A stretch of DNA of 38,371 nucleotides, taken from Polymorphobacter multimanifer. GTDB taxonomy: Bacteria; Pseudomonadota; Alphaproteobacteria; Sphingomonadales; Sphingomonadaceae. Shown piece after piece: positions 4,935 through 34,818 of the stretch. Every line of letters starts with the position of its first letter. Position 1 is the stretch's first letter. Location of the stretch: contig NZ_JACIIV010000030.1 in NCBI RefSeq assembly GCF_014205635.1, positions 1 through 38,371 of the forward strand, in the 5' to 3' direction. A program made the position numbers and the translations under genes. The notes beneath the pieces were generated by a model. The model had not been told where the DNA came from, searched no databases, and was given only the letters and a program-made list of their open reading frames with translations.

Positions 4935-5049
4935 CTTGCACCGCCGCGCCGGGGCCGCAATTGCCGATTGTACAACTCGTCAGGTCCGCCCGACTCGACG
5001 GCATCCGCGGCTCGGTCAGAAGTCCGGGTTCATCACAGTTGCGTCACAG

Positions 5050-5142: not shown

Positions 5143-5646
5143 ATGCAGGATGATATGGCGGCCAGTTTTCCGGACGTTGTCAGGCGGTTTTCTCCGATGA
5201 TTGCCCGGATCGCCTTTACCTTCGAAGCCAATGCTGCCGACCGGCAGGACCTGCAGCAGGACATGTTGCTCGCCGTATGGAGGGCGCTGCCGGCGTTCCG
5301 CGGCGAGGCCTCGCTGAAAACATTTGTGGCCAGCATCGCGCAACGTCGTGCGGTGTCGCATGTCCAGAAAGCGGCGCGGGCACCGCGGACGAGCGAGCTC
5401 GATGACATGATTGTTGCTGGCGGGGCAGATCAGGAGGAGACGGCAATTCGCCGCGACATGCAGCGAAGGCTGACCGAGGCGCTGCGGTCGCTGCCGGTAA
5501 CCCAGCGCGAAGCAGCAGTATTGTTGCTGGAGGGCTTCAATTATACTGAGATCGGGACCATACTCGGGGTCTCGGCCAACGCAGCGACCCTGCGCTGCCA
5601 GCGCGCCCGGCAGAGCCTGCAGACGGCGATGGAGGAGGCAGCGTGA
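5143..5646 (+). CDS. ECF-type RNA polymerase sigma factor
   Basis: This 167-residue protein has only regions 2 and 4 of sigma-70, as in extracytoplasmic-function sigma factors. Region 2 covers about residues 10-75 (DRQDLQQDMLLAVWRALPAF, then LKTFVASIAQRRAVSHV). Region 4 covers about 100-160 (LRSLPVTQREAAVLLLEGFN, YTEIGTILGVSANAATLRCQ). It would redirect RNA polymerase to a small regulon. An in-frame ATG at 5155 is an alternative start with a better-placed purine-rich site. The stop overlaps the GTG of the next gene, so the two are translated together and the partner is a candidate anti-sigma factor. Whether the peptide locus 230 bases further on belongs to its regulon cannot be seen from the sequence. 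Confidence 0.92.
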   Translation: MQDDMAASFPDVVRRFSPMIARIAFTFEANAADRQDLQQDMLLAVWRALPAFRGEASLKTFVASIAQRRAVSHVQKAARAPRTSELDDMIVAGGADQEETAIRRDMQRRLTEALRSLPVTQREAAVLLLEGFNYTEIGTILGVSANAATLRCQRARQSLQTAMEEAA

Positions 5647-6278
5647 ACGATGATTTCGATGCCTTGAAAGAAAGCTGGGTGGCGCTGGGCTCCGAAGACG
5701 CGGTGAGCGAGGGACAGCAGCTATCGCGCCGGGCAATCCGGAGAGTTCGTATCCGCGAAATCTTCGAGATGGTGCTGACTGTTGTCGTCAGTGTCTATGT
5801 CGCAGTGCGGGCGGCGGCCGACCCGCACCCGGAGTCGATCATGCTGGCGGCGGGAATTATCGGATTGCTGGGATGGACGTCGATCCACCGGTACCGGCAG
5901 AGTCGGGGGCGGTGGCGCGATACCGGCGCCGAGCGGATGGCATTCCTGGAGCGCGAAATGCTGTTCACACGTATCGACCTGCGCCGAGCCTTGCTGAGTA
6001 TTGCCGCGATCGTGCCGCTGTTCGGACTGGCGCTTTTGTTTGGGCAGCGACAAGCGATGATGCTGGGCGCCGCCAACGGGATCGTGGAGCCGGTAGCGAG
6101 GCTCCTCGACGAGCCTGGTGGCAAGGCAGCGGCTCTGGCGCTTTTGCTGCTCCTGCTCTTCCATCTCGTGCGGTCCGCGCTTGTCAGTCGGCGGGCGCTG
6201 ATCCACCTCCGGGCGATGTCCGACGAGTATCGTCGCGAGGCCGAGCGTGACCGGATCGGCGACGTCTCGCGCCGCTGA
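5643..6278 (+). CDS. Four-helix membrane protein coupled to the ECF sigma factor (possible anti-sigma)
   Basis: This 211-residue protein starts at GTG 5643, overlapping the sigma-factor stop (GTGA). The N-terminus (about 1-35) is soluble, with an FDALKESWVALG segment. It is followed by hydrophobic stretches at about 38-58, 62-80, 108-130 and 155-178, and a charged C-terminal tail. I recognise no catalytic motif. A soluble N-terminus plus membrane helices, encoded directly behind an ECF factor, fits a membrane-held anti-sigma protein, but the usual zinc-binding HxxxCxxC motif is absent. The role is therefore inferred from context alone. Confidence 0.75.
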   Translation: MNDDFDALKESWVALGSEDAVSEGQQLSRRAIRRVRIREIFEMVLTVVVSVYVAVRAAADPHPESIMLAAGIIGLLGWTSIHRYRQSRGRWRDTGAERMAFLEREMLFTRIDLRRALLSIAAIVPLFGLALLFGQRQAMMLGAANGIVEPVARLLDEPGGKAAALALLLLLLFHLVRSALVSRRALIHLRAMSDEYRREAERDRIGDVSRR

Positions 6279-6327: not shown

Positions 6328-6507
6328 GCCGACAGAAACCGAAAAACTGCGTGACTAATCTATTCGACGGCGATGGTGCCGTTGAAGCAGATGGTCTCCA
6401 TCAAAGATTGCAAGTCTGTTCAAGGCATTGTCATCGAACAATCGTTCACGACGGATGACGATACGCGAAGTCTTGTGTCGAAAACTTGGGGATCGAAAGG
6501 ATTTACC

Positions 6508-6633
6508 ATGATCCGTATCGATGAGCTTGAAGAACTCGACACCGTTGTCGGCCTGTTCGGCACGACATTGTGCGATGACGTCGGTGGACCGCCCTGTGTT
6601 GCAGTGATTGTCGGCATCATCGTTTCCAACTGA
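6508..6633 (+). CDS. Short peptide P1, probable precursor of an exported peptide
   Basis: This 41-residue peptide has an acidic N-terminal half (IRIDELEELD) and a hydrophobic end. Gly26-Gly27 is followed by a 14-residue tail rich in Val and Ile; Cys22 and Cys30 bracket the Gly-Gly. A GAAAGG ribosome site lies 7 bases before the ATG at 6508. The frame stays open back to 6373, but the N-terminal pattern resembles peptides P2 and P3 only if translation starts at 6508, which is why I chose it. It precedes the first A-B gene pair and is separated from it by a GC-rich hairpin. An acidic leader plus a short hydrophobic core after Gly-Gly is the general plan of bacteriocin and RiPP precursors. That assignment is inference; I know no named family that it matches. 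Confidence 0.65.
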   Translation: MIRIDELEELDTVVGLFGTTLCDDVGGPPCVAVIVGIIVSN

Positions 6634-6704
6634 GGTAATTTTCTCGGCGCCGGAATCGCGCCACGTCCACCGATACCAACAGCAGGAGCAGGTCACCGGA
6701 TCGA

Positions 6705-6725
6705 CGGCCGGGCGCAAGCCGGCCG
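6705..6725 (+). promoter_or_regulatory. GC-rich hairpin between P1 and A1
   Basis: CGGCCGG and CCGGCCG form a perfect 7-bp stem around a 7-base loop in the 163-base gap between the peptide and the first A gene. There is no T-run, so it is not a classical terminator. It may stabilise the upstream peptide message or reduce read-through. A similar, stronger hairpin occupies the equivalent place before A2. Confidence 0.5.
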
Positions 6726-6796
6726 CCGACCGGCGGCGGCGTCGCGTTGCCGGTGCGGCGGCGGAATGACGGGGTCTGCCCCCAGGGGAGAGTGCA

Positions 6797-7771
6797 ATGA
6801 TCGCCAGTGCGGAACTTCGGCAATGGCTGGACAGCAGCAGCGCCCAGAAAATGACCGGTCGGCGTACCGTGCAACTGGCGCAGGCGTGGGAAGCGAGCTC
6901 CGCGGTGCTGGCGTTGCGCGCTGCGCTGGCGGAATGTCCGGAAACGATTGCGGCCGTTCGGGAAGCGTTGGCGGACACGCTCGCCGACACAGGCTGGGTG
7001 GCAGGGCTGCTGGCGATGTTGCGCCGCGAACTGGCCGTCGACGCCTTTGTACAACTGCCGTTTCGGCCCATGCCCAATGCCATCGGTGACGGCCTTCTGC
7101 TGCTGACGCACCCGCTTGCCAATGTGTCGCTGGTCGTTGTGGACGCGGCGCGTCTGGCCGAGAAGAAGCGGCTGGGTGGACACGGAAAGTCAATCCGGTT
7201 CTCGGGTCGCTGCATGGTCGGTTCGGTCGTCCGCGGATCGGCAACGATCCGCCGCTATGCAGGGGATGCGCCAGGCCTGGACTGGCGGGCCGCCGAGGCG
7301 CCGCCCTGCCGCATCGGCGGCACCGAGTGCTGGGAAGTCGGAACGGTGTTCACCATCGACGGCCGTAGCGAGGCCTACAGCTTCCTCGAAGCCAGTCCCG
7401 ACTTTGTTTTCGTGCAGTGCGAGATCGTCTGCGAAGCGGCGCCGCTGTCTATCGAATATGATGCCGAGACCTGCCGGCTGCTGGGGGCGAGCACCACCGA
7501 TGCGCAGGCATCGCGCGCGATGATGATGCTGTCGTGCCTCGCAACGCTGGGCTTGTCCGATCCCGAGACGGCTTTCGACCGGGGACTCGAAAGCCGGTAC
7601 TTTCATGTCCGCTGGCACGCCATGCGCGAGTATCTCGCGATACGGCCGGCACTGGCATGGGACGCGATGGCTCGCATGGCGGCGGACGACCCGCACCCCG
7701 ATATCCGCAGTGCGGCTGCGCGGGCGATGGCAGGTCGTACGAACGAAGGGCCTGCCCCATGCCACGCGTGA
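6797..7771 (+). CDS. Peptide-cluster protein A1 (HEAT-like C-terminus)
   Basis: This 324-residue protein has no signal peptide or membrane helix, so it should be cytoplasmic. It is a paralogue of A2 at 9173. Both share a central stretch KSIRFSG...RG (KRSVSFSG...RG in A2) and, at exactly residues 271-278, the motif VRWHAxRE. This motif begins a pair of helical repeats ending in ADDPHPDIRSAAARAMA. The repeats look like HEAT or PBS-lyase-type repeats, which usually mediate protein contacts. The first 90 residues are alpha-helical and Ala/Leu-rich. A GGGGAGA ribosome site precedes the ATG. The gene overlaps B1 by 13 bases, implying coupled synthesis and perhaps a complex. I recognise no catalytic site; it could be a scaffold, a peptide-recognition partner or an unknown enzyme. 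Confidence 0.8.
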   Translation: MIASAELRQWLDSSSAQKMTGRRTVQLAQAWEASSAVLALRAALAECPETIAAVREALADTLADTGWVAGLLAMLRRELAVDAFVQLPFRPMPNAIGDGLLLLTHPLANVSLVVVDAARLAEKKRLGGHGKSIRFSGRCMVGSVVRGSATIRRYAGDAPGLDWRAAEAPPCRIGGTECWEVGTVFTIDGRSEAYSFLEASPDFVFVQCEIVCEAAPLSIEYDAETCRLLGASTTDAQASRAMMMLSCLATLGLSDPETAFDRGLESRYFHVRWHAMREYLAIRPALAWDAMARMAADDPHPDIRSAAARAMAGRTNEGPAPCHA

Positions 7772-8706
7772 TCGCCAATGCCGAGCAGCGGAGCATCAAC
7801 CTGCCGGAAATGATCGATGCGCTGCGGACGGCACGGCCGGATCCGCGCGACGAGGACAGCTTTGCCCGATTTGCCCCGGAGCTGCAGGCGCTGGGCAACA
7901 ACCGCAGCTTCCTGAGCGAGATCATCTGCGCCGAGCTCGCCGAGGATTGCCGCAACCAGCAGGCGGTAAGTGCCTATGGTCCCCAGGTCATTGCGCTCTA
8001 TCAGGGCGATGGGGTGATGGTACGCGCCAATTGCTGGCCGCAGGCGCGGCACAGCCTCGTGCGCAACAATCGGCCGGAAAGCTTTTTCTACGACGTGCCG
8101 CACGATCATAATTTCTCGTTTCTGACGCTCGGCTATGCCGGTCCAGGCTATTTGAGCGATCATTTCGAATATGATCATGGCAGCGTTGCTGGCGCCGCCG
8201 GCGAGTCCGTGACGTTGACACCGGCAGCGCGGACCCGGCTCGAGCCCGGCTGCACGCACCTGTATCGTGCGCATATCGACGTTCACAGCCAACAGCCGCC
8301 CGAGGCGTTCTCGGTATCGCTCAATATCATCGAGGCATCGGCGACGACGCCGCTGCGCGACCAATATGTGTTCGACCTGGCCAACGGGCGCATTGCCGGG
8401 CTTGCGAACCCGGTGGCGACGGCATCGCTGCTGCCGCTGCTGGCAAGGCTCGACGGCGCAGAAGGGCGCGACCTGCTCAATCGCTTTGCCGAACGGCATC
8501 CGAGCGATCGCATCCGCTATGCCGCGGTGACGGCGCTGGCCGACGTCGCCGGCGATGCGGATACACGCGCCGGGGTGTTCGAGCGGGCGCTTGCCAACGG
8601 CAGCCTGCTGGTGCGGACACGCGCCGGCGAAGACCTGTCGAAGTTGGCGGCAATGGTTTCGATGAACAGCACAAGTGACAGAATAGTAGCTTCAAATCGA
8701 AGCTAA
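7759..8706 (+). CDS. Peptide-cluster protein B1, cupin-like putative metal enzyme with HEAT-like tail
   Basis: This 315-residue protein is a paralogue of B2. A conserved N-terminal helical part (LPEMIDAL, DPRDED, LGNNRSF at about 46-51) is followed by the core motif PHDHNFSFLTLGYAGPGY (His115, His117), then EYD, and later DVHSQ (His176) with SVSLNIIEAS. The HxH pair plus a distant third His matches the metal-binding pattern of cupin-fold proteins, many of which are iron oxygenases or isomerases. The cofactor and reaction are inferred. The last 100 residues form HEAT-like repeats. The start at 7759 overlaps the end of A1. The natural substrate may be the neighbouring short peptides. Confidence 0.78.
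   Translation: MPRVIANAEQRSINLPEMIDALRTARPDPRDEDSFARFAPELQALGNNRSFLSEIICAELAEDCRNQQAVSAYGPQVIALYQGDGVMVRANCWPQARHSLVRNNRPESFFYDVPHDHNFSFLTLGYAGPGYLSDHFEYDHGSVAGAAGESVTLTPAARTRLEPGCTHLYRAHIDVHSQQPPEAFSVSLNIIEASATTPLRDQYVFDLANGRIAGLANPVATASLLPLLARLDGAEGRDLLNRFAERHPSDRIRYAAVTALADVAGDADTRAGVFERALANGSLLVRTRAGEDLSKLAAMVSMNSTSDRIVASNRS
8687..8705 (+). promoter_or_regulatory. Hairpin over the B1 stop codon
   Basis: TAGCTTC and GAAGCTA form a perfect 7-bp stem with the loop AAATC, and the B1 stop (TAA 8704-8706) lies in its right arm. A second small hairpin (GGAGA/TCTCC, 8754-8767) follows before the P2 ribosome site. The gap 8707-8788 is AT-richer than the surroundings and may hold a separate promoter for the peptides. 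No T-run is seen. Confidence 0.4.
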
Positions 8707-8788
8707 GTATTGGTTGTAATAGCGAGCGGTAAAATACATGATGCTCAAGTCAAGGAGAATGATCTCCAAGACAAAAGGGAGAAAGCAC

Positions 8789-8932
8789 ATGAAGGATTTC
8801 GACGTCAATCAACTGCCCTGCCTGAACCTGGAAGCCGGCATGGCCGATGTGTCGAACGGTGAAGCCCTGAACGGCGGCGTGCGCGCCGTGGTTCACTCGG
8901 TCATCGCCTCCGCCATCGACGCACTCGTCTGA
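8789..8932 (+). CDS. Short peptide P2, probable precursor of an exported peptide
   Basis: This 47-residue peptide starts at the ATG at 8789 behind an AAAGGGAGAAAG ribosome site. Its N-terminus, FDVNQLPCLNLEAGMA, matches that of P3 (INVNELPALEFDAGLA) almost position for position. Both peptides have Gly-Gly at residues 29-30. The remaining 17 residues are mostly Val, Ala and Ile with single His, Ser, Arg and Asp, and could form an amphipathic helix. The conserved half looks like a leader and the variable half like a product core, as in RiPP and double-glycine bacteriocin precursors. It lies between the two A-B modules, 32 bases before P3. Confidence 0.8.
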   Translation: MKDFDVNQLPCLNLEAGMADVSNGEALNGGVRAVVHSVIASAIDALV

Positions 8933-8964
8933 TCCGCAACCACAGCTCAGCAAGGGGAAACAGC

Positions 8965-9117
8965 ATGATCAACGTCAACGAACTGCCCGCTCTCGAATTC
9001 GACGCCGGGCTTGCCAACAACACTGCCGACGACGCCGTCACCAGCATCGGTGGCATCATCGCCGGCATCGTCACCGGCATCATCGCCGGCATCTCGGCCA
9101 ACGCCGCAGTCGAGTAA
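8965..9117 (+). CDS. Short peptide P3, probable precursor with glycine-zipper core
   Basis: This 50-residue peptide follows an AAGGGGAAA ribosome site. The leader-like part (INVNELPALEFDAGLA) is shared with P2, and Gly29-Gly30 is in the same place. The tail repeats an IIAGIVTG-IIAGI pattern with Gly at every fourth position. This is a glycine-zipper arrangement typical of membrane-inserting helices; the tail ends in SANAAVE. A strong hairpin follows 9 bases after the stop. The conserved leader with a different hydrophobic core suggests two products handled by the same machinery. Membrane activity is inferred. Confidence 0.82.
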   Translation: MINVNELPALEFDAGLANNTADDAVTSIGGIIAGIVTGIIAGISANAAVE

Positions 9118-9126
9118 AACGCACCA

Positions 9127-9152
9127 CCGGCCGGGACCCGTGTCCCGGCCGG
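9127..9152 (+). promoter_or_regulatory. Strong 11-bp hairpin between P3 and A2
   Basis: CCGGCCGGGAC and GTCCCGGCCGG pair perfectly around a 4-base loop (CCGT). There is no following T-run, so it is better read as a partial terminator or an mRNA-protecting structure. Such elements let peptide transcripts outnumber those of the downstream enzyme genes. The A2 ribosome site (GAGGAGG) begins about 10 bases after it. Confidence 0.65.
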
Positions 9153-9172
9153 CCTGGCTGGAGGAGGATGAC

Positions 9173-10141
9173 ATGAGGAACGGTTCGGACTGGCAGACGA
9201 TGCTCCGCGATGCCGATTATGAAGCCGAGGTGGTCGCCAAGGCGAGGGCGCTGGGTGTCCATCACCGCGATGCATCGGGCATTGCAGCACTGGAAAAGCA
9301 GGTGGCGGCGTTGGGCGACGATGCCGCGGCAAGCTTTGAGGCCGTGGAGGATTTCTTCACCCTGTCGCGGGTGCGCGAAGTGCTGGCCGCCGAGCGCGCC
9401 GCTTTTGCCGACACCAGAACATTTGCCTCCAAATTCCAGGGGTTCTCGACATCTTCGCAGACCGCCATGGCGGTGGCGAGGGCGCGCAACTTCATCACTT
9501 TGCTCGTTGCCATCGACCCGCACATGCTCAAGATCGGCAAGCAGCGGCGCCCGGGCGACAAGCGTTCGGTATCGTTTTCGGGAACTCCGTTCTCGATGAA
9601 ACTGCTGCGCGGCACGCTTCCTGTGCGGCGCTGGGTGCTGACGCCGTGCGATGACACGACCGACCTCGGCGCGGTGGGGCGGATGGCCAGCCCGGCCATG
9701 CCCGAGGTGATGGTCGCCGGTGAAACCATCCGGCTCGGCAGTTTCGAGACGGTCGAGTATCTCGCCGGCGGAACAGCGGCGCTGCTGCTGATCACCCAGA
9801 TGTCGAACGGCGAGGCGCCGGTGGCGCTGACCTGCGATGCCGACAGCGGCGAGGTGCGATCGACCCAGGCGGTTGGTCAGGCGCCGAGCCGCTTGCAGAT
9901 GTTGGCGTCGGTGGCACGAATGTTCGATCGCGACGACGCCTGGGATGCTGTGCGCGGGCTGCTCGACCACCCGCTGCATTTCGTCCGCTGGCACGCGCTG
10001 CGCGAGCTGATCGGGATGGATGCCGGTCGCGCGCTTCCCGACATTCTCCGGCTGATGGAGAGCGACCCGCAGCCCGCGGTCCGGCGCGGTGCCGGCACCG
10101 CGCTGGCGATGGTCAACGCCCATCTCGCAAAGGCCGCCTGA
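9173..10141 (+). CDS. Peptide-cluster protein A2 (HEAT-like C-terminus)
   Basis: This 322-residue protein is a paralogue of A1 with the same architecture. It has an N-terminal helical region rich in Ala and charged residues (1-110), a middle part with KRSVSFSGTPFS and LLRGTLPVRRW, a segment VEYLAGGTAALLLITQMSNG, and C-terminal helical repeats starting with VRWHALRE at 271-278. I see no signal peptide, membrane helix or catalytic motif. The start at 9173 follows a GAGGAGG site; upstream frames lead into the hairpin. It is followed after 40 bases by B2, repeating the A-then-B order of the first module. Overall similarity to A1 is modest, so the duplication is not recent. Confidence 0.8.
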   Translation: MRNGSDWQTMLRDADYEAEVVAKARALGVHHRDASGIAALEKQVAALGDDAAASFEAVEDFFTLSRVREVLAAERAAFADTRTFASKFQGFSTSSQTAMAVARARNFITLLVAIDPHMLKIGKQRRPGDKRSVSFSGTPFSMKLLRGTLPVRRWVLTPCDDTTDLGAVGRMASPAMPEVMVAGETIRLGSFETVEYLAGGTAALLLITQMSNGEAPVALTCDADSGEVRSTQAVGQAPSRLQMLASVARMFDRDDAWDAVRGLLDHPLHFVRWHALRELIGMDAGRALPDILRLMESDPQPAVRRGAGTALAMVNAHLAKAA

Positions 10142-10181
10142 ACACTCTTCCTGCACAGTCCTCCTGCACAAGGAAATTACT

Positions 10182-11096
10182 ATGCCCATCGTCCGCCATT
10201 TCGACGACACTGCCAGCATCGAGCTCGACGAGATGATCGCCTTCATCGAGGACAACGCCGTCGACCCGCGCAATGAGGATGACATGCTCGCCGCGGCGCC
10301 GCTCTTGAAACGGCTTGGCAACAACCGCAGCTTCATCGCCGATATGGCCTTGAAGGAGCTGAAGGCGCGCAACAACCTCGACGCCATCGACCATAATTAC
10401 ACGCCGCAGACGATCATGCTGACGCCCGCCAACAAGCGCTGGTTCATGCGGTGCAATTTCTGGCCTTCGGCAAGCGACCACATCTTTCGCTCATCGGGCG
10501 CAAAGGCCTTCTTCTACTTTGAACCGCACGACCATAACTTCAACTTCCTGACCGTCGGCTACAAGGGCCCGGGGTACAAGAGCGACTATTACGAATATGA
10601 TTATGACGATGTCCTTGGCTATCCGGGCGAGGCGGTGCCGCTGCGCTTCGTCGAGAGCAGCGCGCTCGAGGAGGGCAAGGTCATGCTCTATCGCGCCTTT
10701 CGCGATGTCCACGACCAGCGGCCGGGGGATGCCATGTCGATGAGCATCAACATCATGGAAAACTCGCTGCGCGGCAATTTCATGGACCAGTATGGCTTCG
10801 ACACCAAGACGATGACCGTCAGCGGCATCCTCAACCGCATCGGCGCGACGGCGCTGCTGCCGATCCTCGCGGTCGCTGGCGAGGACGATGGAAACACGCT
10901 CGATTTCCTGACCGAGACGGCGCGCGGCCATGTGTCGGGCAGGGTGCGGACGGTGGCTCTGAACGCGTTGGCCGGGGTGCAGCCCGACGCCCTCGGCGCC
11001 ATCGCCGTCCACCAGGGCGGCTTGACCAATGACGATCCGCAAGTGCGCGGCTTCTGCCGTGAGCGGCTGGCCCGGCTCGAGGCGCTGGTCGCGTGA
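10182..11096 (+). CDS. Peptide-cluster protein B2, cupin-like putative metal enzyme with HEAT-like tail
   Basis: This 304-residue protein is a paralogue of B1. Conserved blocks are LDEMIAFI, DPRNED, LGNNRSF, EPHDHNFNFLTVGYKGPGY (His116, His118), YYEYD, DVHDQ (His177) and SMSINIMENS. The three His residues fall at the same relative places as in B1, which argues that they are functional ligands. The C-terminal third has HEAT-like helices. The ATG at 10182 follows an AAGGAAA site. The stop overlaps the GTG start of the membrane-fusion gene, tying this enzyme to the export genes. A peptide-modifying oxygenase or other metal enzyme is the simplest reading, but no substrate evidence exists in the sequence. 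Confidence 0.8.
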   Translation: MPIVRHFDDTASIELDEMIAFIEDNAVDPRNEDDMLAAAPLLKRLGNNRSFIADMALKELKARNNLDAIDHNYTPQTIMLTPANKRWFMRCNFWPSASDHIFRSSGAKAFFYFEPHDHNFNFLTVGYKGPGYKSDYYEYDYDDVLGYPGEAVPLRFVESSALEEGKVMLYRAFRDVHDQRPGDAMSMSINIMENSLRGNFMDQYGFDTKTMTVSGILNRIGATALLPILAVAGEDDGNTLDFLTETARGHVSGRVRTVALNALAGVQPDALGAIAVHQGGLTNDDPQVRGFCRERLARLEALVA

Positions 11097-12169
11097 GTGC
11101 CGGGGTGATCGCGCCGCCTGTGGCCGAAGCTGCAGGAATGCCGATGGCCGACGTCGCCGACAAGTTGCGGCGGTTGCGCATCGACAGTGCCGCGATGCGG
11201 CGGCCGGCTGCGGCGCCCGAGCCGGTGCCGGCCACCCGGCGGCGTGTGCCCGGTGCGGCAGTCGCCGCGGCCATGATGGTGCTGGCGGCAGCGGGGGCAG
11301 GCTTCGCCGCCGGGCGGGCAGGGGAGCGGTCGCAGGTTGCAGCAGCGCCACCGGTCGTGGTGGCGCCAACCCCTACAGCTCCGGTGGCATCGGTGGTTGC
11401 CGCCGGCCATGTCGTGGCACGGCGCCAGGCAACGATCGCGGCGCCCGTGACCGGGCGGATCGACCATGTCGAGGTCGAGGAAGGCCAGCGCATCGCCGCC
11501 GGCACGGTCATCGCCCGCATCGACGATGCGGCCGCAGCGGCGCAGGTCGACGATGCCGCCGCTTCACTCCGCGCAGCCCATGCCGAGATCGACCGGCTGG
11601 CGGCACGGCGGCGCGAGGCAGCGGCGACACAGTTGCGCTTCGACACGCTCGACGCGCGCGGCTTTGCCCGTGGCGCAGACGTCGCCAGGGCGGCGGCCGA
11701 TGTGGCGGCGATCGATGCCGAGCTGGTGCGGGCGAGGGCGCTCGTCGATGTCGGCGCGGCCGGGCTGGCGGGGGCCCGCGTGACGCTCTCGCGCATGGTC
11801 ATCCGGGCGCCCTTCAGCGGCGTGGTGACGCGCTTGAGCGCACAGCCGGGTGAGATCATCTCGCCGGTATCGGGCGGCGGCGGCTTTACCCGCACCGGCA
11901 TCTGCACGATCGTCGACATGGACAGCCTTGAAGTCGAGGTCGACGTTTCGGAGGCGCAGATCGCGGCGATCCGACCGGGCCAGGGAGCGGCAATCTCGCT
12001 CGATGCCTATCCAGATCGGCCCTACGCCGGCCGCGTGCTCGCCGTGGTGCCGATCGCCGACCGGGCGCGTGCCACCTTCCGCGTGCGCGTCGGCTTCGAC
12101 CGTATCGATGCGCGGCTGATGCCCGAGATGGCGGCACGCATCGCCTTTCAGGATGGAGCGCGAACATGA
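11093..12169 (+). CDS. Membrane-fusion (periplasmic adaptor) protein, HlyD/MacA type
   Basis: This 358-residue protein begins at GTG 11093 inside the B2 stop region (GTGA overlap). It has a cytoplasmic N-terminus, one membrane helix at about 55-75, a lipoyl-like half (IAAPVTGRIDHVEVEEGQRI), an Ala/Arg-rich coiled-coil hairpin at about 145-225, the second lipoyl half (IRAPFSGVVTRLSAQPGEII), and a beta-barrel domain. Such adaptors link inner-membrane ABC pumps to an outer-membrane duct. Its stop overlaps the ABC ATPase start (ATGA), so it is part of a MacA-MacB-like unit. The outer-membrane channel is not encoded here; a TolC-type protein elsewhere would be needed. Confidence 0.9.
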   Translation: MSAGVIAPPVAEAAGMPMADVADKLRRLRIDSAAMRRPAAAPEPVPATRRRVPGAAVAAAMMVLAAAGAGFAAGRAGERSQVAAAPPVVVAPTPTAPVASVVAAGHVVARRQATIAAPVTGRIDHVEVEEGQRIAAGTVIARIDDAAAAAQVDDAAASLRAAHAEIDRLAARRREAAATQLRFDTLDARGFARGADVARAAADVAAIDAELVRARALVDVGAAGLAGARVTLSRMVIRAPFSGVVTRLSAQPGEIISPVSGGGGFTRTGICTIVDMDSLEVEVDVSEAQIAAIRPGQGAAISLDAYPDRPYAGRVLAVVPIADRARATFRVRVGFDRIDARLMPEMAARIAFQDGART

Positions 12170-12891
12170 ATGCCTGTCTGCCGATCGCCGTGCCGACGTC
12201 GCCCCTCGTGACTCTGAACGGCGTGCACAAGAGCCATGGCCGCGGCGAGGGCAGCGTGCCGATCTTCCGCGGTCTCGACCTCGAATTCGCCCGCGGCGAG
12301 TTCGTCGCGATCATGGGGCCGTCGGGATCGGGCAAGACGACGTTGCTCAACCTGGTCGGCGGGATCGACCATGTCGATGGCGGCAGCATCCTTTTCGATG
12401 GCCGGCCGATGAGCGGCATGGGAGACGGCTGGCTGGCGCGGTGGCGCGCTGACAATGTCGGGTTCGTTTTCCAGTTCTACAATCTGATGCCGTACCTCAC
12501 CGCGGCGCAGAATGTCGAACTGCCGCTGCTGCTGACCAGGCTCGACCGGCGGCAACGGCGCGAGCGCGTGGCGCTGGTGCTCGATCTCGTCGGCCTGTCC
12601 GACCGGGCGCGCCACCGCCCGGCGCAGCTCTCGGGGGGGCAGCAGCAGCGTGTCGCCATTGCGCGCGCGCTGGTCGCCGACCCCCAGCTGCTGCTCGCCG
12701 ATGAACCGACCGGAGATCTCGATCGCGCGACCGCCGAGGACGTGCTGACCATGCTCGCGCTGGTCAGCGGGGAGCTCGGCAAGACAGTGATCATGGTGAC
12801 CCACGACCCGCTCGCGGCGGCGCGGGCGGACCGGACGCTGGTGCTCGACAAGGGAATGATGGTTTTTGCGCCTGCCGGGGCGGCCGCATGA
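12166..12891 (+). CDS. ABC transporter ATP-binding protein, MacB/LolD type
   Basis: This 241-residue ATPase has Walker A GPSGSGKTT (51-59), a Q-loop region with FVFQFYNLMPYLTAAQN, signature LSGGQQQR, Walker B LLLADEPTGDLD and switch His in VTHD. FYNLMPYLTA-ENV-like wording and the TGDLD ending are typical of the LolD/MacB/FtsE branch that works with FtsX-type permeases. It overlaps both the adaptor and the first permease by 4 bases. It should power export or extraction of a hydrophobic substrate from the inner membrane, here plausibly the short peptides. Confidence 0.93.
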   Translation: MNACLPIAVPTSPLVTLNGVHKSHGRGEGSVPIFRGLDLEFARGEFVAIMGPSGSGKTTLLNLVGGIDHVDGGSILFDGRPMSGMGDGWLARWRADNVGFVFQFYNLMPYLTAAQNVELPLLLTRLDRRQRRERVALVLDLVGLSDRARHRPAQLSGGQQQRVAIARALVADPQLLLADEPTGDLDRATAEDVLTMLALVSGELGKTVIMVTHDPLAAARADRTLVLDKGMMVFAPAGAAA

Positions 12892-14045
12892 GCCCGGCGA
12901 CGCTGGCATGGCGCAACCTCGGCCGCAATCGGCTGCGCGCCGGGTTGATGATCGTGTCGGTCGCGGTCGCGTTCAGCCTTTTCGGCGCGCTGTTCGGATT
13001 TTCGGCACTGCTCGATCCCGATGCGGAAATGGCGACCAGCCGCGATCTGGTCGTGCGCCACCGAGTCAACATCCTGCAGATGCTTCCGGTCCGCGATGGT
13101 GAGGCAATCGCCCGCATTCCGGGGGTGGAGAGCGTGTCGCACCAGGTTGTGATGGCCGGCCATGTCGGCAGCCGCGACCACAAGCTGCCGACCATGATGG
13201 TCTCGGCGCCGGCCTATCTCGCGCAAAACGCAGATGATGTGTTGCTCGACGCGGCGACGAAGGCGACGTTCCTGCGCACCCGGGACGGCCTGATCGCCGA
13301 TGCGGCGACCGCGACCGAACAGGGCTGGAAGCCGGGCCAGCTGGTGACCATCACCAGCCCGTCGCAGCCGCGCCGCGACGGTTCGGCGGACTGGGAATAT
13401 CGCTATGTCGGCAGCTTCACCGCCGCGGATGGCAGCGACAGCGGCATCAAGGGTGCTATCGGGCATTTCGAGTATCTCAACGAAGGGTCGGCGCTGGGCC
13501 GCGACCGGGTACACTGGTTCGGACTGCGGACGCGGTCGGCGGCGGACAACGACCGCGTCGCAGCGGCGATCGACGCCCGCTTTGCCAATTCGGACAGCCC
13601 CACAAAGACCGAACCGGCCAGCGCCATGGCGCGTGCCTTTCTTTCGCAGCTCGTCGACTTCGAAACCGTGATGCGCGTCGTCGTCGGCGCCGCGTTCGTC
13701 GCCATCCTGATGGTCGTCGGCAACACGCTGGCGATGGTGGTGCGCCAGCGCGTCCGCGAGATCGGCGTTCTGCGCGCGATCGGCTTTCCGGCCGCCACCG
13801 TGCTGCAGGTGGTGCTCGGCGAAGCGCTGCTCGTCGCCACCATCGGCGCGGTCACCGGTCTGGTGCTGGCGGCGGCGCTGGTGGCGGCGGTCGCGGCGGA
13901 CATGGGCGGCGGCGACGTGTCGATACCGGCCGGGGTCGTCGCCGGCGGGCTCGGGCTGGCGCTGGTGTTCGGGCTCGTCACCGGGCTGCCGCCGGCGCTG
14001 GCGGCGCTGCGTATCCGTCCCGCCCAGGCCTTTGCGAGGAGCTGA
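12888..14045 (+). CDS. FtsX-like ABC permease 1
   Basis: This 385-residue protein has an N-terminal membrane helix after LAWRNLGRNRLRAGLMI, then a large periplasmic domain (about 45-255). Three C-terminal helices (about 262-380) follow, with the FtsX motif VRQRVREIGVLRAIGFPA. This topology is that of MacB/LolC/FtsX permeases. It starts inside the end of the ATPase gene and is followed after 3 bases by permease 2. The two probably form a heterodimer around the ATPase dimer. Confidence 0.92.
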   Translation: MSPATLAWRNLGRNRLRAGLMIVSVAVAFSLFGALFGFSALLDPDAEMATSRDLVVRHRVNILQMLPVRDGEAIARIPGVESVSHQVVMAGHVGSRDHKLPTMMVSAPAYLAQNADDVLLDAATKATFLRTRDGLIADAATATEQGWKPGQLVTITSPSQPRRDGSADWEYRYVGSFTAADGSDSGIKGAIGHFEYLNEGSALGRDRVHWFGLRTRSAADNDRVAAAIDARFANSDSPTKTEPASAMARAFLSQLVDFETVMRVVVGAAFVAILMVVGNTLAMVVRQRVREIGVLRAIGFPAATVLQVVLGEALLVATIGAVTGLVLAAALVAAVAADMGGGDVSIPAGVVAGGLGLALVFGLVTGLPPALAALRIRPAQAFARS

Positions 14046-14048
14046 AAC

Positions 14049-15221
14049 ATGTCGATTGCCGCCTTCTTCGCACCCACTCGCATCGCCGTCCGCGGCCTCG
14101 GTCAGCGCTGGCCGATGGCGCTGGCGACCGTCCTCGGCATTGCGCTGGTGGTGTTGATCCTGCTCGGCTTCCTGGCAGCCGCCGATGGCTTTTCGCGGAG
14201 CCTGGAGGGTGCGGGGTCCGACAAGGTGGCGATCATCGTCAGCGGCGACGCACGGTCGGAAACGGCAAGCGTGCTGGCGGCGCCCGATCTCGCGATCCTG
14301 CGTGCGACGCTTGTCGGCGCCGGAGTCGGGGCCGAAACGATCTCGCCGGAGCGTGTGGCAACGCGGACCCTCGCCCGGCCGGCGGCCGAGCCAGCCGGCG
14401 TGGTGGTGCGCGGCGTGACGCCGTCGGCGGCGGCCCTGCGCCCGCAGTTGACCATCGTCGACGGGCGCATGATGCAGCCGGGGCGTGCCGAAGTGCTGCT
14501 CGGACAGGCGGCCGCGCGGCGCCTCGGCGGGCGCATGGTCGGCGACACGCTGCTCATCGAAGGGCGGCCGTGGCGTGTTGTCGGCCTGTTCAGCGCGGGC
14601 GGTTCGGCCCTTGAAAGCGAGGTCTGGGCCGACACCGGCCAGGTGGCCGCCGAGGGGGGCAATGTCGTGCAGTCGCTGCGCGTCGGTCTCGACGACGGCC
14701 TGACGCTGGAGGCGTTGCGGCAGCGGTTGGCGGCGGACAAGCGCATCGACGTCAGCGTCTCGCGCGAGGACAGGTTTTTCGCCGCCCAGTCGACCGGTGT
14801 GGCCGGCATGGTGCGGCGCTTCGGCTGGCCGATCGCCATCGTGATGGCGGTGGGTGCGCTCGCGGGCGCGCTCAACACCATGTATAGCAGCGTTGCGGTC
14901 CGCGGCCGCGAGATCGCGACGCTGCGTGCCATCGGCTTCGGACGGGCAGCCACATTCGCCGCGACCTTTGCCGAGGCGCTGGTCCTCGCAACAGCCGGCG
15001 CAGCAATCGGCATCGCCGCCGGTCTCCTGCTGATCGACGGCCACGCCGCCAGCACACTCGGCGCTGGGGCGGCGGAGACCAGCTTCACCTTTGTGCTGAC
15101 CACGTCGGCGATTGTCGCGGCGCTGGTGTTCGCGCTCGTCACCGGTGCCCTTGGCGGGGCGCTTCCCGCCTTGCGCGCCTCTCGCCAACCGATCCTGAAG
15201 GGACTTTCAGCCGATGTCTGA
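14049..15221 (+). CDS. FtsX-like ABC permease 2
   Basis: This 390-residue protein has the same plan as permease 1. An N-terminal helix at about 24-44 is followed by a long periplasmic domain with SGDARSETASVL and LLIEGRPWRVVGLFS segments. Three helices at the C-terminus include VAVRGREIATLRAIGFG. Most LolC/E-type exporters use two related permeases, which fits this pair. Its stop overlaps the start of the next gene by 8 bases. Confidence 0.92.
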   Translation: MSIAAFFAPTRIAVRGLGQRWPMALATVLGIALVVLILLGFLAAADGFSRSLEGAGSDKVAIIVSGDARSETASVLAAPDLAILRATLVGAGVGAETISPERVATRTLARPAAEPAGVVVRGVTPSAAALRPQLTIVDGRMMQPGRAEVLLGQAAARRLGGRMVGDTLLIEGRPWRVVGLFSAGGSALESEVWADTGQVAAEGGNVVQSLRVGLDDGLTLEALRQRLAADKRIDVSVSREDRFFAAQSTGVAGMVRRFGWPIAIVMAVGALAGALNTMYSSVAVRGREIATLRAIGFGRAATFAATFAEALVLATAGAAIGIAAGLLLIDGHAASTLGAGAAETSFTFVLTTSAIVAALVFALVTGALGGALPALRASRQPILKGLSADV

Positions 15222-16956
15222 GAAAACCCAATCCGCCCGCCCGGGCACGGGCGCCCTGCGCAAGGTGATTGCCGCCGGGCAGCCGCGGCGGCTGGCGATC
15301 GCCTGCGCCATCGGCATCGGGCTTGTCGAGGTGGCGAGCACCCTCGCCTTTCCGGTCATCACCCGCGACATCATCGATGCGGTGACGCGCAGCACGCCGG
15401 GAGTCGGCTCGCTGCTCGCCGACCCGCGTGTCGTGCTGCTCGTCGTCATCCTGCTGGCAGGCGCCGTGTGCGGCGCGGTCTCCAGCTACCTCCTCAGCCG
15501 CGCGGCGCTCCGGGTGACGCGCAACGTCCAGCAATCGCTGTTCGATTCGATGGTCGGCCGGTCGATGCGATTTTTCGATGCCAATGAAAGCGGCGCCCTT
15601 GTCAGCCGTATGGTCAGCGACACGAAATCGGTGTCGCAGCTGCTGACAACCGGCGCGGCGGGCCTCGTCAATGCCGTTGTGCTGCTCGCCGGGTCGGTGG
15701 TGGTGCTGTTGCTGCTCGACACGGCGTTGACGCTCGTCATCTTCGGCATCGTTCTCGGCACCTTTGCGCTGATGATCCCGATGGTGATGCGGCTGGCGGC
15801 AATCAGCAAGGCAATCAACGCCGCCTCGGCACGGGTCAGCTCGGCAGTGGCACGGGTATTCGGTGGTATTCGCCTGGTGAAAGCGGCCACGGCCGAGGCG
15901 ACAGAGCGCACGCGATTGGCGGGCGAGCTGGCTGCAGTCGAGACCGAGGCACGCAAGCTTGCGATGGTCCAGTCGCTGCTCAATCCGGTCAACGGACTGG
16001 CAGTGACGGCTGCGCTGGTGGTGCTTTTCACCTATGGCAGCGCGCGCATCCAGCTCGGCACCCTGTCGGCCGGCACACTGACTGCCTTCATTCTCTACAT
16101 CTTCAATATCGTCGCGCCGCTGATCGCGATCTCGACCTTCATCGCGCAATTCCGCATCGCCCAGGGGTCGGCCGGCGTGCTGGCGGACCTGCTCGTCGCT
16201 GAAATGCCGACGACGGTCCGGGCGGAACGAGCAACCGTGCCGATCGCCGAGGCCCGCGGCGACATCGTCTTCGACGGTATCGGTTTCGACTATGGCGATG
16301 GCGGCGAAGCGCAACCGACGCTGGCGATCGGGCGCATGGTCATTCCAGCCGGAAAGCGCACCGCCATCGTCGGCGCCAGCGGATCCGGCAAATCGACCCT
16401 ACTGGCGCTCATCGAGCGCTTCTACGCGCCGCAGCGAGGTCAGATCACTTGCGGCGGCCATGATATCGCCGATTTCGACCTTGCCGAATGGCGCGGCACC
16501 ATCGGCTATGTTGCCCAGTCGGCGGTGCTGCTGTCAGGGACCATCGCCGACAATATCGGCTATGGCGCCGGCGAGCCCGATCGCGCCCGCGTGCTGGCGG
16601 CGGCCGAGGCGGCCAACGCCCGCGAATTCATCGATCGCCTGCCGGGCGGCATCGACGCTCCGGTTGGCGAGCAGGGCGGGCTGCTGTCGGGTGGCCAGCG
16701 CCAGCGCATCGCCATTGCCCAGGTCTTCTACCGCGATCCGCGTATCCTGTTGCTCGACGAGGCAACCGCCAGTCTCGATCTCGACAATGGCCGGCTTGTG
16801 ATGGCGGCGTTCGAACGGCTGATGGAAGGGCGGACGACGATCATCGTCACCCACCAGCCCGAATTGCTTCGCAACATCGACCGCGTCTTCACCATCAGCC
16901 GCGGCGCGCTCGTTGACGATGACGGCACCCAGGCCATCACCGCAATGGCATCGTAG
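15214..16956 (+). CDS. ABC exporter with fused membrane and ATPase domains, no C39 peptidase
   Basis: This 580-residue half-transporter has six helices in about the first 320 residues and then an ATPase domain. The ATPase carries Walker A GASGSGKST (about 387-395), signature LSGGQRQR (about 491), Walker B ILLLDEATASLD and His in VTHQ. It resembles MsbA/LmrA-like lipid, drug and peptide exporters. Exporters of double-glycine peptides normally carry an N-terminal C39 cysteine peptidase of about 130 residues. Here the helices begin about 30 residues from the start, so that domain is absent. If the Gly-Gly in the peptides is a cleavage site, the protease lies elsewhere. The gene overlaps permease 2 by 8 bases, so it belongs to the same transcript. 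Confidence 0.92.
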   Translation: MSEKTQSARPGTGALRKVIAAGQPRRLAIACAIGIGLVEVASTLAFPVITRDIIDAVTRSTPGVGSLLADPRVVLLVVILLAGAVCGAVSSYLLSRAALRVTRNVQQSLFDSMVGRSMRFFDANESGALVSRMVSDTKSVSQLLTTGAAGLVNAVVLLAGSVVVLLLLDTALTLVIFGIVLGTFALMIPMVMRLAAISKAINAASARVSSAVARVFGGIRLVKAATAEATERTRLAGELAAVETEARKLAMVQSLLNPVNGLAVTAALVVLFTYGSARIQLGTLSAGTLTAFILYIFNIVAPLIAISTFIAQFRIAQGSAGVLADLLVAEMPTTVRAERATVPIAEARGDIVFDGIGFDYGDGGEAQPTLAIGRMVIPAGKRTAIVGASGSGKSTLLALIERFYAPQRGQITCGGHDIADFDLAEWRGTIGYVAQSAVLLSGTIADNIGYGAGEPDRARVLAAAEAANAREFIDRLPGGIDAPVGEQGGLLSGGQRQRIAIAQVFYRDPRILLLDEATASLDLDNGRLVMAAFERLMEGRTTIIVTHQPELLRNIDRVFTISRGALVDDDGTQAITAMAS

Positions 16957-16993
16957 ATCCCGTGAATTCCAACCCTTCGGCAGGAGCTTGACG

Positions 16994-17416
16994 ATGGCCA
17001 TATCACAGCCACCTCCCGGCGCCCCGGTGCTGGATGAAGTCCGTCGCTGGCACCCGGCGCTGGCGATCGCCTATGACGCAAGAGCAGTGCGCGGCCGCGT
17101 CTTCGGCCGGGTCGTCATGACCGATGCCGCCTGGGACATGCTGCTGTTCCTGGCACTCGCGGCGTGCGAACAGCGTGAGGTCACGCTCGGCGATGCGTGC
17201 CAAAGCGCCCACACCTCGCCCAGCACGGCGCTTCGTCAGCTCGACCATCTTTGCGACCGCAAATTGCTGGTGCGCGTGCCGAACCCTGCCGACCGGCGCA
17301 GCCATCTGGTGGCGATCACACCCGCGGGGCTCGGCAAGCTTGTGGAATATCTCGATCGGTTGTCGGCGGCGTCGGCATGGTCGTCGCCATTGGCTGCCTC
17401 TGTTGTCCTGGCTTGA
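16994..17416 (+). CDS. MarR-type winged-helix transcriptional regulator
   Basis: This 140-residue protein has a winged-helix region with TLGDACQSAHTSPSTALRQL (recognition helix), RKLLVR, and the MarR wing signature PADRRSHLVAITPAG. An AGGAG site precedes the ATG at 16994; an earlier in-frame start would run back into the exporter gene. It has an N-terminal extension with RGRVFGRVVMTDAAWDMLLF, the first dimer helix. MarR proteins usually repress neighbouring efflux or stress genes and respond to small molecules. Its place at the end of the transporter operon suggests control of the peptide/export cluster; the ligand is unknown. Confidence 0.85.
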   Translation: MAISQPPPGAPVLDEVRRWHPALAIAYDARAVRGRVFGRVVMTDAAWDMLLFLALAACEQREVTLGDACQSAHTSPSTALRQLDHLCDRKLLVRVPNPADRRSHLVAITPAGLGKLVEYLDRLSAASAWSSPLAASVVLA

Positions 17417-17423
17417 AGGGGAA

Positions 17424-17819
17424 ATGAAGATGATGGACACGATCTCGCGCAACATGAACTCGACGATGTTCTTGCGACTGCTTCTGATCGCCGGCGTGAT
17501 CGAGACAACCTATCTGATAGGGTTGTTCGAGCGTCGGATGGCAGTCGACGGATTGGCGATGGCGCTTGCCTTTACCATCGTCATACCGTGGGTGCCCTAT
17601 GCCCTGGGGTGGGCGGTGGTGACTTGGCGCAGCCGCATCGCCGCCGCTATCCTCGTCGCGCTGACGGCTCTCGCCTGGGTCGCTGGCGTTGCCATCGGCA
17701 CGGCGAACTGGTTCGACGACGCTGTTCTTCTCGTCGGCGCGCTGGCGACCATCTTTCAAACGCTGGCAACACTGATGCTGCTTTCACCGGCGGGGCGGAC
17801 CTGGATGGAGCGCCGCTGA
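17424..17819 (+). CDS. Small four-helix membrane protein
   Basis: This 131-residue protein has hydrophobic segments at about 15-33, 42-65, 72-92 and 98-120 and short charged ends. I do not recognise the family. An AAGGGGAAA site lies just before the ATG at 17424; in-frame ATGs at 17433 or 17436 are also possible. It sits 7 bases after the MarR gene and closes the peptide/export operon. A self-protection (immunity) role would fit a membrane-active peptide system, since many bacteriocin immunity proteins are small multi-helix membrane proteins. This is context-based inference only. Confidence 0.75.
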   Translation: MKMMDTISRNMNSTMFLRLLLIAGVIETTYLIGLFERRMAVDGLAMALAFTIVIPWVPYALGWAVVTWRSRIAAAILVALTALAWVAGVAIGTANWFDDAVLLVGALATIFQTLATLMLLSPAGRTWMERR

Positions 17820-20077: not shown

Positions 20078-20128
20078 GTGCGCTGCCGGTCGCTGGCAAG
20101 CAGCACATGCACAACAAGGGAAGATTGC

Positions 20129-21103
20129 ATGACAGCGCGGCAGCCGGCCGAATGGGCGCGGCACAAAGCGACATGGACGGCATTCCCCTCGCACCCCGAG
20201 CTTTGGGAAGACGACCTGGCGCCGGCGCAGGCCGAAGTCGCCGCCCTGGTGCGCGCCGTGGCAAAGCATGAGCGGGTGGAACTGCTCGTCGCCAATGCCG
20301 CCGCCGAGGCGCAGGCGCGGTCGATGCTGGCGGGCGCCGATGTCGGTTTCCATCATTATGGCTTCGGAGACATCTGGCTGCGCGATACGGGCCCGCTGTT
20401 CATGACCTCGCCGGCGGGGCAGGCGGCGGCGGGATTCCGCTTCAATGGCTGGGGCGGCAAGTACACCCTCGCCGGCGATGACGGCGTGGCGGCCTATGTG
20501 GCGGGGCAGGCGGGGGTGCCGCTGGCGCGCCATGGCTGGGTGCTGGAGGGTGGCGCCATTGATGTCGATGGCTCGGGACTGGCGGTCACCACCGAGCAGT
20601 GCCTGCTCAACCCCAACCGCAACCCGCGCATGGATCAGGCCGAGATCGAATCGCACCTGCGCCGCGATCTGGGCATCGATGAAATCCTCTGGCTCGGCGA
20701 AGGGCTCGAGGGCGACCATACCGATGGCCATGTCGACAATCTGGCGCGCTTCGTCGGCCCGCGGAAGCTGGCATTGCCGGCCCCCACGACCGATGATCCC
20801 AACCGGGCGGTGCTGGTCGATGCGCATGACCGCGCGCGCGATTTCGGGCTCGAGGTGGTGCTCATCCCGAGCGTCGGCCGCTATGAGCGGGACGGCGAGC
20901 TGGTGCCGGCGAGCCATATGAATTTCTACATCTGCAACGGGCTGGTGGTGGTGCCGACCTATGGGGTGGCGTCGGACGCGGCTGCAGTGGCGGCGATCCG
21001 CGCGTGCTTTCCGGGCCGGGAGACCATCGGGCTGCGTGCCGATTTCATCCTGACCGGCGGTGGCTCGTTCCACTGCATCACCCAGCAGCAGCCGGAGGCC
21101 TGA
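20129..21103 (+). CDS. aguA: Agmatine deiminase
   Basis: This 324-residue enzyme hydrolyses agmatine to N-carbamoylputrescine and ammonia. It has the guanidine-group-modifying fold: WLRDTGP near residue 88, EGGAIDVDG, the catalytic His motif EGDHTDGHVDN, and the nucleophile Cys316 in GGGSFHCITQQ at the C-terminus. I chose the ATG at 20129 because it follows an AAGGGA site and matches the family start, TARQPAEWA-H. It is followed after one base by aguB, giving a complete two-step route to putrescine. Confidence 0.95.
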   Translation: MTARQPAEWARHKATWTAFPSHPELWEDDLAPAQAEVAALVRAVAKHERVELLVANAAAEAQARSMLAGADVGFHHYGFGDIWLRDTGPLFMTSPAGQAAAGFRFNGWGGKYTLAGDDGVAAYVAGQAGVPLARHGWVLEGGAIDVDGSGLAVTTEQCLLNPNRNPRMDQAEIESHLRRDLGIDEILWLGEGLEGDHTDGHVDNLARFVGPRKLALPAPTTDDPNRAVLVDAHDRARDFGLEVVLIPSVGRYERDGELVPASHMNFYICNGLVVVPTYGVASDAAAVAAIRACFPGRETIGLRADFILTGGGSFHCITQQQPEA

Positions 21104-21104
21104 G

Positions 21105-27968: not shown

Positions 27969-28112
27969 CAATTCCGGCCGCTCTTTCAATACGGTTGCAT
28001 CGTCATACTTGATTCGGGACCGGGTGGTTTCCAGTCAAGTGACCTTTGTGTCACGCGGCGCGCATGAGACGCACCAGTGGTACAAGGTGGCCAAAAAAGG
28101 GGTGGGGACGCT

Positions 28113-31055: not shown

Positions 31056-31064
31056 TGCGCGGCA

Positions 31065-31089
31065 CCCCGGCCCTTTCCACGGGCCGGGG
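31065..31089 (+). terminator. Strong 9-bp hairpin after the receptor gene
   Basis: CCCCGGCCC and GGGCCGGGG pair perfectly around a 7-base loop, 9 bases after the receptor stop. No T-run follows. It probably lowers, without fully stopping, transcription into the enzyme genes, or protects the receptor message from 3' decay. Confidence 0.5.
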
Positions 31090-31149
31090 CAATGTGCCAC
31101 AATCCGCGAACAAGGGTTCGCAAATAAGAACACCATGGGGAGAGCAAAG

Positions 31150-32136: not shown

Positions 32137-32185
32137 GGCAGCCTCGGCCCCTCGCATCCATCCCCTCAATCGAAGGTTTGAACGC

Positions 32186-34297: not shown

Positions 34298-34319
34298 TCG
34301 ACCCTTCAGGAGAACGTCC

Positions 34320-34796: not shown

Positions 34797-34818
34797 ATTC
34801 CATCCCGGGGGAGGGGTC

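Follow-up and report, generated by a model that had tools for sequence, protein, structure and literature searches.

In the crocagin system, the peptide-binding proteins CgnB and CgnE, which are without Pfam similarity, guide the predicted dioxygenase CgnC on the precursor, as described in PMC10070186. Cupin-fold proteins are described as acting on or beside a RiPP precursor in an account of the cupin/JmjC hydroxylases PbsQ and BpmG (PMC12257519) and, likewise, in that on the cupin-4 proteins of proteusin-like clusters (PMC9426513). The cluster described here lies in a 38,371-nucleotide window (the whole stretch of DNA that was analysed) from Polymorphobacter multimanifer and has the arrangement general to RiPP systems, a short leader-core precursor gene beside putative machinery, here the proteins A and B (Table 1). 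It resembles crocagin in combining putative peptide-binding proteins, a dioxygenase-type enzyme and a precursor; however, CgnB and CgnE are described in that paper (PMC10070186) as aminopeptidase-like, whereas A appears to be a cupin sharing its architecture with B. A crocagin-type binding protein was rejected for A because its model matches cupins, CgnB and CgnE being known here from their description. In those accounts, PbsQ, BpmG and the proteusin-like cupins accompany MNIO and radical-SAM enzymes or an NHLP leader, unlike the present cluster, in which the cupin is the sole enzyme-like gene and is paired with a degenerate partner.

Adaptor, ATPase and FtsX permease genes are shared by the window with darobactin-/MacAB-type export, although the NCBIfam darobactin adaptor model gave a weak match in the window (21 bits against a cut-off of 450), darobactin-type systems have another precursor and other enzymes, and the window adds a full ABC exporter. 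The Cys-type precursors (P1 and those of loci L002, L008, L011, L003, L004 and L042) end their leader in GG, as class II double-glycine peptides do, whereas the 40-60 residue precursors found beside single A-B pairs are without GG ahead of the core. A double-glycine bacteriocin with C39 processing was rejected, since Peptidase_C39 is absent from the Pfam matches of the ABC exporter (15214..16956). An MNIO (DUF692) RiPP was rejected because a DUF692 match is absent among the cluster proteins, and known RiPP enzymes in general because none appeared in Pfam and NCBIfam scans of the cluster; the Pfam scans thus bear out the initial annotation, which had seen no LanM, YcaO, radical-SAM, lasso or DUF692 enzyme.

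No description of such a peptide-A-B triad was found in the open-licence PMC literature under the terms used. We consider it rather probable that the locus represents an undescribed RiPP-like system, whose core triad unites a precursor with two cupin-HEAT proteins, A being degenerate and B active-looking, and the doubled set joined to exporter genes in the window probably yields a modified, secreted peptide of undescribed kind.

Organization of the two-pair clusters

Three small frames beside two A-B pairs had been proposed initially, and their coordinates and gene order were found again; the pairs are true duplicates, as judged from the 41% identity of B1 and B2 and the about 20% identity of A1 and A2. 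The cluster is larger than first stated and starts with an ECF sigma factor gene and an overlapping membrane protein gene (5143-6278). The stop/start overlaps claimed for the downstream genes hold for B2-adaptor, adaptor-ATPase, ATPase-FtsX and second FtsX-ABC exporter, but the two FtsX genes are separated by a 3-base gap. Counterparts of all 16 cluster genes are present in Sphingomonas sp. Leaf33 (L001) with their order kept, and this conservation, together with precursor-like frames at the same site in relatives, set against none of 2850 control frames at E 0.01, places the layout beyond chance.

Table 1. Features of the cluster in the window, with the basis of each assignment
Feature	Position	Strand	Basis or remark
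ECF-type RNA polymerase sigma factor	5143..5646	+	Pfam Sigma70_r2, Sigma70_r4_2
Membrane protein, possible anti-sigma factor	5643..6278	+	Overlaps sigma gene
Promoter-like element GACAG-N17-GACTA	6331..6357	+	177 bases ahead of P1 start
P1, Cys-type precursor peptide, 41 aa	6508..6633	+	GGPPC precedes hydrophobic end
A1, degenerate cupin and HEAT-repeat partner protein (predicted)	6797..7771	+	Alignment of A; weak HEAT_2
B1, thiol-dioxygenase-like cupin (predicted); N-terminal helices, C-terminal HEAT helices	7759..8706	+	Alignment, invariant HxH...H
P2, precursor peptide, 47 aa	8789..8932	+	L001 counterpart, 62% identity
P3, precursor peptide with GxxxG repeats, 50 aa	8965..9117	+	L001 counterpart, 54% identity
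A2, degenerate cupin and HEAT-repeat partner protein (predicted)	9173..10141	+	Model pLDDT 90.2, cupin matches
B2, thiol-dioxygenase-like cupin, predicted oxidative enzyme	10182..11096	+	Model pLDDT 92.1, thiol dioxygenase matches
Periplasmic adaptor, HlyD/MacA type	11093..12169	+	Pfam HlyD_D23, NCBIfam RND_mfp above cut-off
ABC ATPase	12166..12891	+	Pfam ABC_tran
FtsX-type permease	12888..14045	+	Pfam FtsX
FtsX/MacB-type permease	14049..15221	+	Pfam MacB_PCD and FtsX
ABC exporter, membrane and ATPase domains	15214..16956	+	Pfam ABC_membrane, ABC_tran
MarR-type regulator	16994..17416 (alternatively from 16913)	+	Pfam MarR_2
Small membrane protein, possible immunity protein	17424..17819	+	L001 cluster ends with homologue

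Clusters with two adjacent pairs are five in number (the window, L001, L002, L008 and L011), and all contain an ECF sigma gene, a membrane protein gene, a MarR-like gene and genes for an adaptor, an ATPase, two FtsX permeases and an ABC exporter, their gene content occurring in two arrangements. In L001, L002, L008 and L011, the sigma gene homologue occupies the same position and is followed by a homologue of the 5643..6278 membrane protein, for which a Pfam scan returned nothing above cut-off and which may possibly act as an anti-sigma factor. The product of 17424..17819, likewise without a match in a Pfam scan, could possibly confer immunity. No protease gene was recognised within the cluster.

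Comparison of 17 upstream regions of the five clusters yielded the sequence GACAG-N17-GACTA, which is located 177-190 bases ahead of P1 in all five. Among 125 loci the element is limited to L001, L002, L008, L011 and two copies of the window, and because it was derived from regions in which it was then counted, its control consists solely of its absence from the other 119 of the 125 loci. A single match in the window is not unusual (0.14 expected; at least one match in 14 of 100 shuffles), and the element was not found ahead of the sigma gene itself.

Recurrence of the peptide-A-B triad

The recurring unit is the peptide-A-B triad. A lies directly upstream of B in all 121 distinct B genes, a count that leaves out L018, L019, L040 and L062 (window copies), identical B sequences and B matches beginning beyond profile position 100. 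When frames within 700 bases ahead of A were searched with a profile built from nine precursors of other loci, a match at E<=0.01 was obtained in 93 of the 121 pairs, nine of which are the profile seeds (84/112 without them), and window P1 was recovered at E 5e-3, whereas at E 0.01 none of 2850 control frames matched (436 reverse-strand upstream frames, and 1122 and 1292 inside A-B). This profile found no precursor at E 0.01 in 28 of the 121 pairs; among these, the second pair of the window and several others have adjacent precursors of types beyond its reach, recognised by eye or through closer relatives, whereas none was recognised beside the rest.

In a whole-genome search of 396 genomes from the order, a 19-precursor profile had matches (E<=0.001) in 117, at one place each. 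Of the 117 matches, 114 precede a listed B by 690-1172 bases and share its strand, a tally from which both places in the window itself and a second fragment in G108 were left out. The remaining three are those of G215 and G097, in which B is on another contig, and G119, in which the B match is weak (2.9e-5). There was no genome among the 396 with a precursor match and no B match, and 27 of the 144 B-positive genomes were without a match to the 19-precursor profile. In the window's own genome, the mixed profile containing P1, P2 and P3 matches those three only. The co-occurrence of short frames sharing one leader with A and B, the check that the initial annotation had proposed, is therefore positive, with B present in 117/117 precursor-positive genomes; these genome counts overstate the number of events, since relatives are not independent.

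Of the 144 genomes with B matches, 143 belong to the window's family (the window included), the other match being weak and in another family. In a phylum sample B was found in 15 of 398 genomes, 13 of them from the window's family, and in the class of one distant match it was found in 2/274 genomes. B is absent from all five same-genus relatives of the window in the sample, which makes this cluster a sporadic one within the genus. One of 72,556 plasmid records contains B, that of Alteromonas stellipolaris, whose gene table, itself incomplete, gives A and B as hypothetical proteins and omits two small frames preceding A. On this plasmid (L125), the two frames ahead of A are precursor-like (4621-4961), and one has the EPV/S-type hydrophobic core common to Alteromonas L004 and Lysobacter L003. 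A second copy of B is present elsewhere in the same genome in G358, G375, G145 and G074.

Seventeen loci were fetched from named genomes, comprising 15 from Alphaproteobacteria and those of Lysobacter and Alteromonas. For 11 of these 17, the flanks (at most about 9 kb) contained nothing homologous to the exporter genes of the window, a result that covers homologues of those genes and not other transporter types, with L017 ending inside B; the exception among the 11 is L010, which has a 99-residue adaptor-like fragment at E 0.001. Lysobacter L003 contains adaptor and ATPase matches, and in Alteromonas L004 the matches are to adaptor, ATPase and FtsX, all on the opposite strand, with an ABC-2 transporter after B. 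Since the window's exporters are missing from 11/17 loci, export is regarded as accessory. Of the RiPP- or bacteriocin-like layout proposed initially, the association of peptides and A-B as one unit and the lack of a known RiPP enzyme thus stand, but the exporter cannot be kept as a general part of the system. Scanned neighbours of the exporter-less triads (ten genes per scan, a subset of the neighbours) are housekeeping genes, namely those for argininosuccinate lyase, pyridoxal decarboxylase, a CysG-like protein, penicillin-binding proteins, prephenate dehydratase, thioesterases, DUF3089 and RuvX.

Precursor peptides and the A and B proteins

Column by column, the alignment of single-pair precursors consists of a conserved leader, a variable linker and a conserved core. 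P7, P15, G22 and G25 are present in every row of the leader, which follows the pattern L.PxLD..GxFGS, and in the core D40 occurs in 65, Y50 in 62 and E/D51 in 66 of 68 strings, which include alternative starts and merge into 62 sequences at 67 places. Because this set was picked by the leader motif, the conservation of the core is not built in. Precursors are 41-55 residues long with an acidic leader and a hydrophobic core; in 61 of the 62 merged sequences an aromatic residue precedes E, D or N within the last 22 residues, and Cys occurs in two. The conserved core D-D-x-hydrophobic-Y-E/D in Sphingomonadaceae hints at a shared molecule, perhaps physiological rather than antibiotic.

A second type of precursor, which includes P1, has GG and Cys ahead of the hydrophobic end and was found in L001, L002, L008 and L011, where the P1 homologues are located, as well as in Lysobacter L003, Alteromonas L004 and L042. 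P2 and P3 make up a third group, with the leader L-P-x-L-D/E/N. Nineteen precursors gave nothing above cut-off against Pfam and NCBIfam. In 27 close single-pair comparisons the third codon position is dominant (165, 88 and 482 differences at positions 1, 2 and 3, respectively), and P2 of L002 and L008 differ at 18 silent codons versus one changing codon; the distant comparison of P3 between the window and L001, with 23 amino-acid changing versus three silent codons, counts against the explanation favoured here. Genome G358 has precursors with GG and Cys at both of its B loci (L042 and L073).

The window P, A and B sequences reached no Pfam or NCBIfam cut-off, and 21 B relatives matched no family above cut-off in either library. 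Models of B2 (pLDDT 92.1) and A2 (pLDDT 90.2) are alike in having helices, a beta barrel and paired C-terminal helices. In Foldseek searches of the PDB, the B model came closest to the dioxygenases of mercaptosuccinate, 3-mercaptopropionate and cysteine, with E between 6e-7 and a few e-6 and a target-based TM of about 0.5-0.6, the best of them (E 6.1e-7, probability 1.00, TM by target 0.61) being in agreement with a cupin fold, and JmjC-type hydroxylases ranked lower. B contains an HxH...H signature, with H116 and H118 in 121/121 rows and H177 in 120/120 readable rows, and in thiol dioxygenases the corresponding residues are metal ligands. R90, W94, T124, G129, G131 and Y132 are each found in 121/121 rows, and D175, Q179 and N190 are likewise invariant across very diverse B rows.

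The predicted core fold of B is thus like that of the thiol dioxygenases (CDO_I), and the P-HDH, L..G.V...D-V/I-H and S.SI elements of sphingomonad CDO-family proteins line up by eye with PHDH, L..GKV...DVH and S.SIN in B. B differs from CDO_I in the lack of a Pfam match, in its extra helices at both ends and in having S-x-S-x-N-x-M in place of the downstream SIHVY motif. At the positions of the CDO-family His and Tyr, which form a catalytic triad, B has N190 and mostly M/L192; thiol dioxygenases act on thiols, whereas most precursors here are without one. Comparison of B with the CDO-family proteins of three sphingomonads by hhalign was not significant (probability 1.4% and 0.2%), and phmmer and profile searches of B against PDB sequences gave nothing convincing. 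Since the kinship consists of predicted structure and a motif aligned by eye and the hhalign result was null, B is called thiol-dioxygenase-like rather than a family member, and it is predicted to be an active-looking iron enzyme of the cupin type.

A is predicted to be a degenerate cupin partner that shares the architecture of B without its HxH...H signature, M1, R272 and W273 alone being invariant in 23 rows. Its model is nearest to HppE, mercaptosuccinate dioxygenase, the sigma-1 receptor and other cupins, and alignment of the A and B profiles gave a probability of 80.7% (E 1.3e-5); the 170 aligned columns take in the helical repeats. HEAT repeats were detected by Pfam in 20 of 23 A relatives at E<=0.1; against PDB sequences, a single A sequence had no match and the A profile retrieved helical-repeat proteins only. 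In L048 (G134) an in-frame TAA at about 1920-1924 splits B, representing a broken gene or an assembly error, and in L031 (G325) A is in two overlapping-frame pieces (547-1483), as in a frameshift.

A proposed pathway and alternative readings

The following scheme is our inference with regard to iron, to the oxidation of the peptides, to the binding and cleavage of the leader, to export and to biological role. A, perhaps with the HEAT parts of A and B, would bind the leader; B, as a non-haem iron oxygenase of the thiol-dioxygenase fold, would oxidise one or more core residues; and the leader would then be trimmed by a host protease. In the window this system would operate in doubled form (P1-A1-B1 and P2-P3-A2-B2) and be activated by a dedicated ECF sigma factor. 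Its products would be exported by the MacAB-like transporter and by the ABC exporter, with regulation provided by the MarR protein and protection by the small membrane protein. We are least certain of the reaction catalysed by B and of what the product does. The conserved core of the single-pair precursors and their housekeeping setting argue for one conserved molecule and not an arms-race toxin, and a bacteriocin or a signal would fit the exported, duplicated form in the window. More tentatively, and with slightly less than even confidence, the triads may constitute a new class of ribosomal peptide in which a single three-His cupin acts on non-Cys residues and a dead cupin paralogue reads the leader, much of the Sphingomonadaceae keeping one fixed chromosomal triad and few lineages having built it into sigma-controlled, exported multi-peptide clusters.

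A and B might instead hold or chaperone the peptide, keeping a membrane-active product harmless or delivering it to the membrane or the exporter, which would suit the hydrophobic cores, the HEAT-like helices of both proteins and the missing histidine signature of A; the invariant HxH...H, D175, Q179, N190 and R90 of B, however, resemble a catalytic site, and such a function is considered unlikely. Similarly improbable, and somewhat more so, is that peptide and A-B form a toxin-antitoxin-like or self-regulating module serving its own maintenance, to which exporters became attached in some lineages. The single-pair triads do adjoin housekeeping genes without the window's exporter genes, and 143 of the listed matches fall within one family, with 0/5 in same-genus relatives of the window, but the occurrence of a single precursor in each genome, always at the same site, the leader/core pattern and the silent-site bias speak against a module of this kind, and two partner proteins of the same fold would be unusual for an antitoxin.

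That B is a small-molecule thiol dioxygenase, with the peptide as its regulator or a subunit, is very unlikely in our estimation: the best structural matches of B act on small thiols, and the lack of Cys in 60 of the 62 merged precursors means that the peptide is not a thiol substrate there, yet B is tightly paired with a leader-bearing peptide, and P, A and B have been duplicated together in the window. Least of all do we credit an ordinary efflux operon with chance or cis-regulatory small frames, even though MacAB-like genes are common and the peptides are unannotated in a gene table acknowledged as incomplete, as matches in 93/121 pairs versus 0/2850 control frames led to the rejection of chance frames and 114/117 genome-wide matches adjoin B.

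If the modification pathway is correct, roughly one in three genomes sampled from the order (144/396) make a peptide that curated family libraries miss, using an iron-enzyme fold in a role not found described in the open-licence PMC literature under the terms used. The triad would offer a simple system for asking what an oxygenase does to a Cys-free peptide and how a dead paralogue can stand in for a leader-recognition domain, and it raises the question of why a peptide module persists beside housekeeping genes.

Elsewhere in the window, adjacent genes at 20078-21968 were taken by eye to encode agmatine deiminase-like and carbon-nitrogen hydrolase-like proteins, presumably as in putrescine synthesis, and a row at 28077-35883 comprises what we take, also by eye, to be TonB-dependent receptor, DHDPS-like, PQQ-dehydrogenase-like and cytochrome c-like genes, perhaps forming one catabolic operon.
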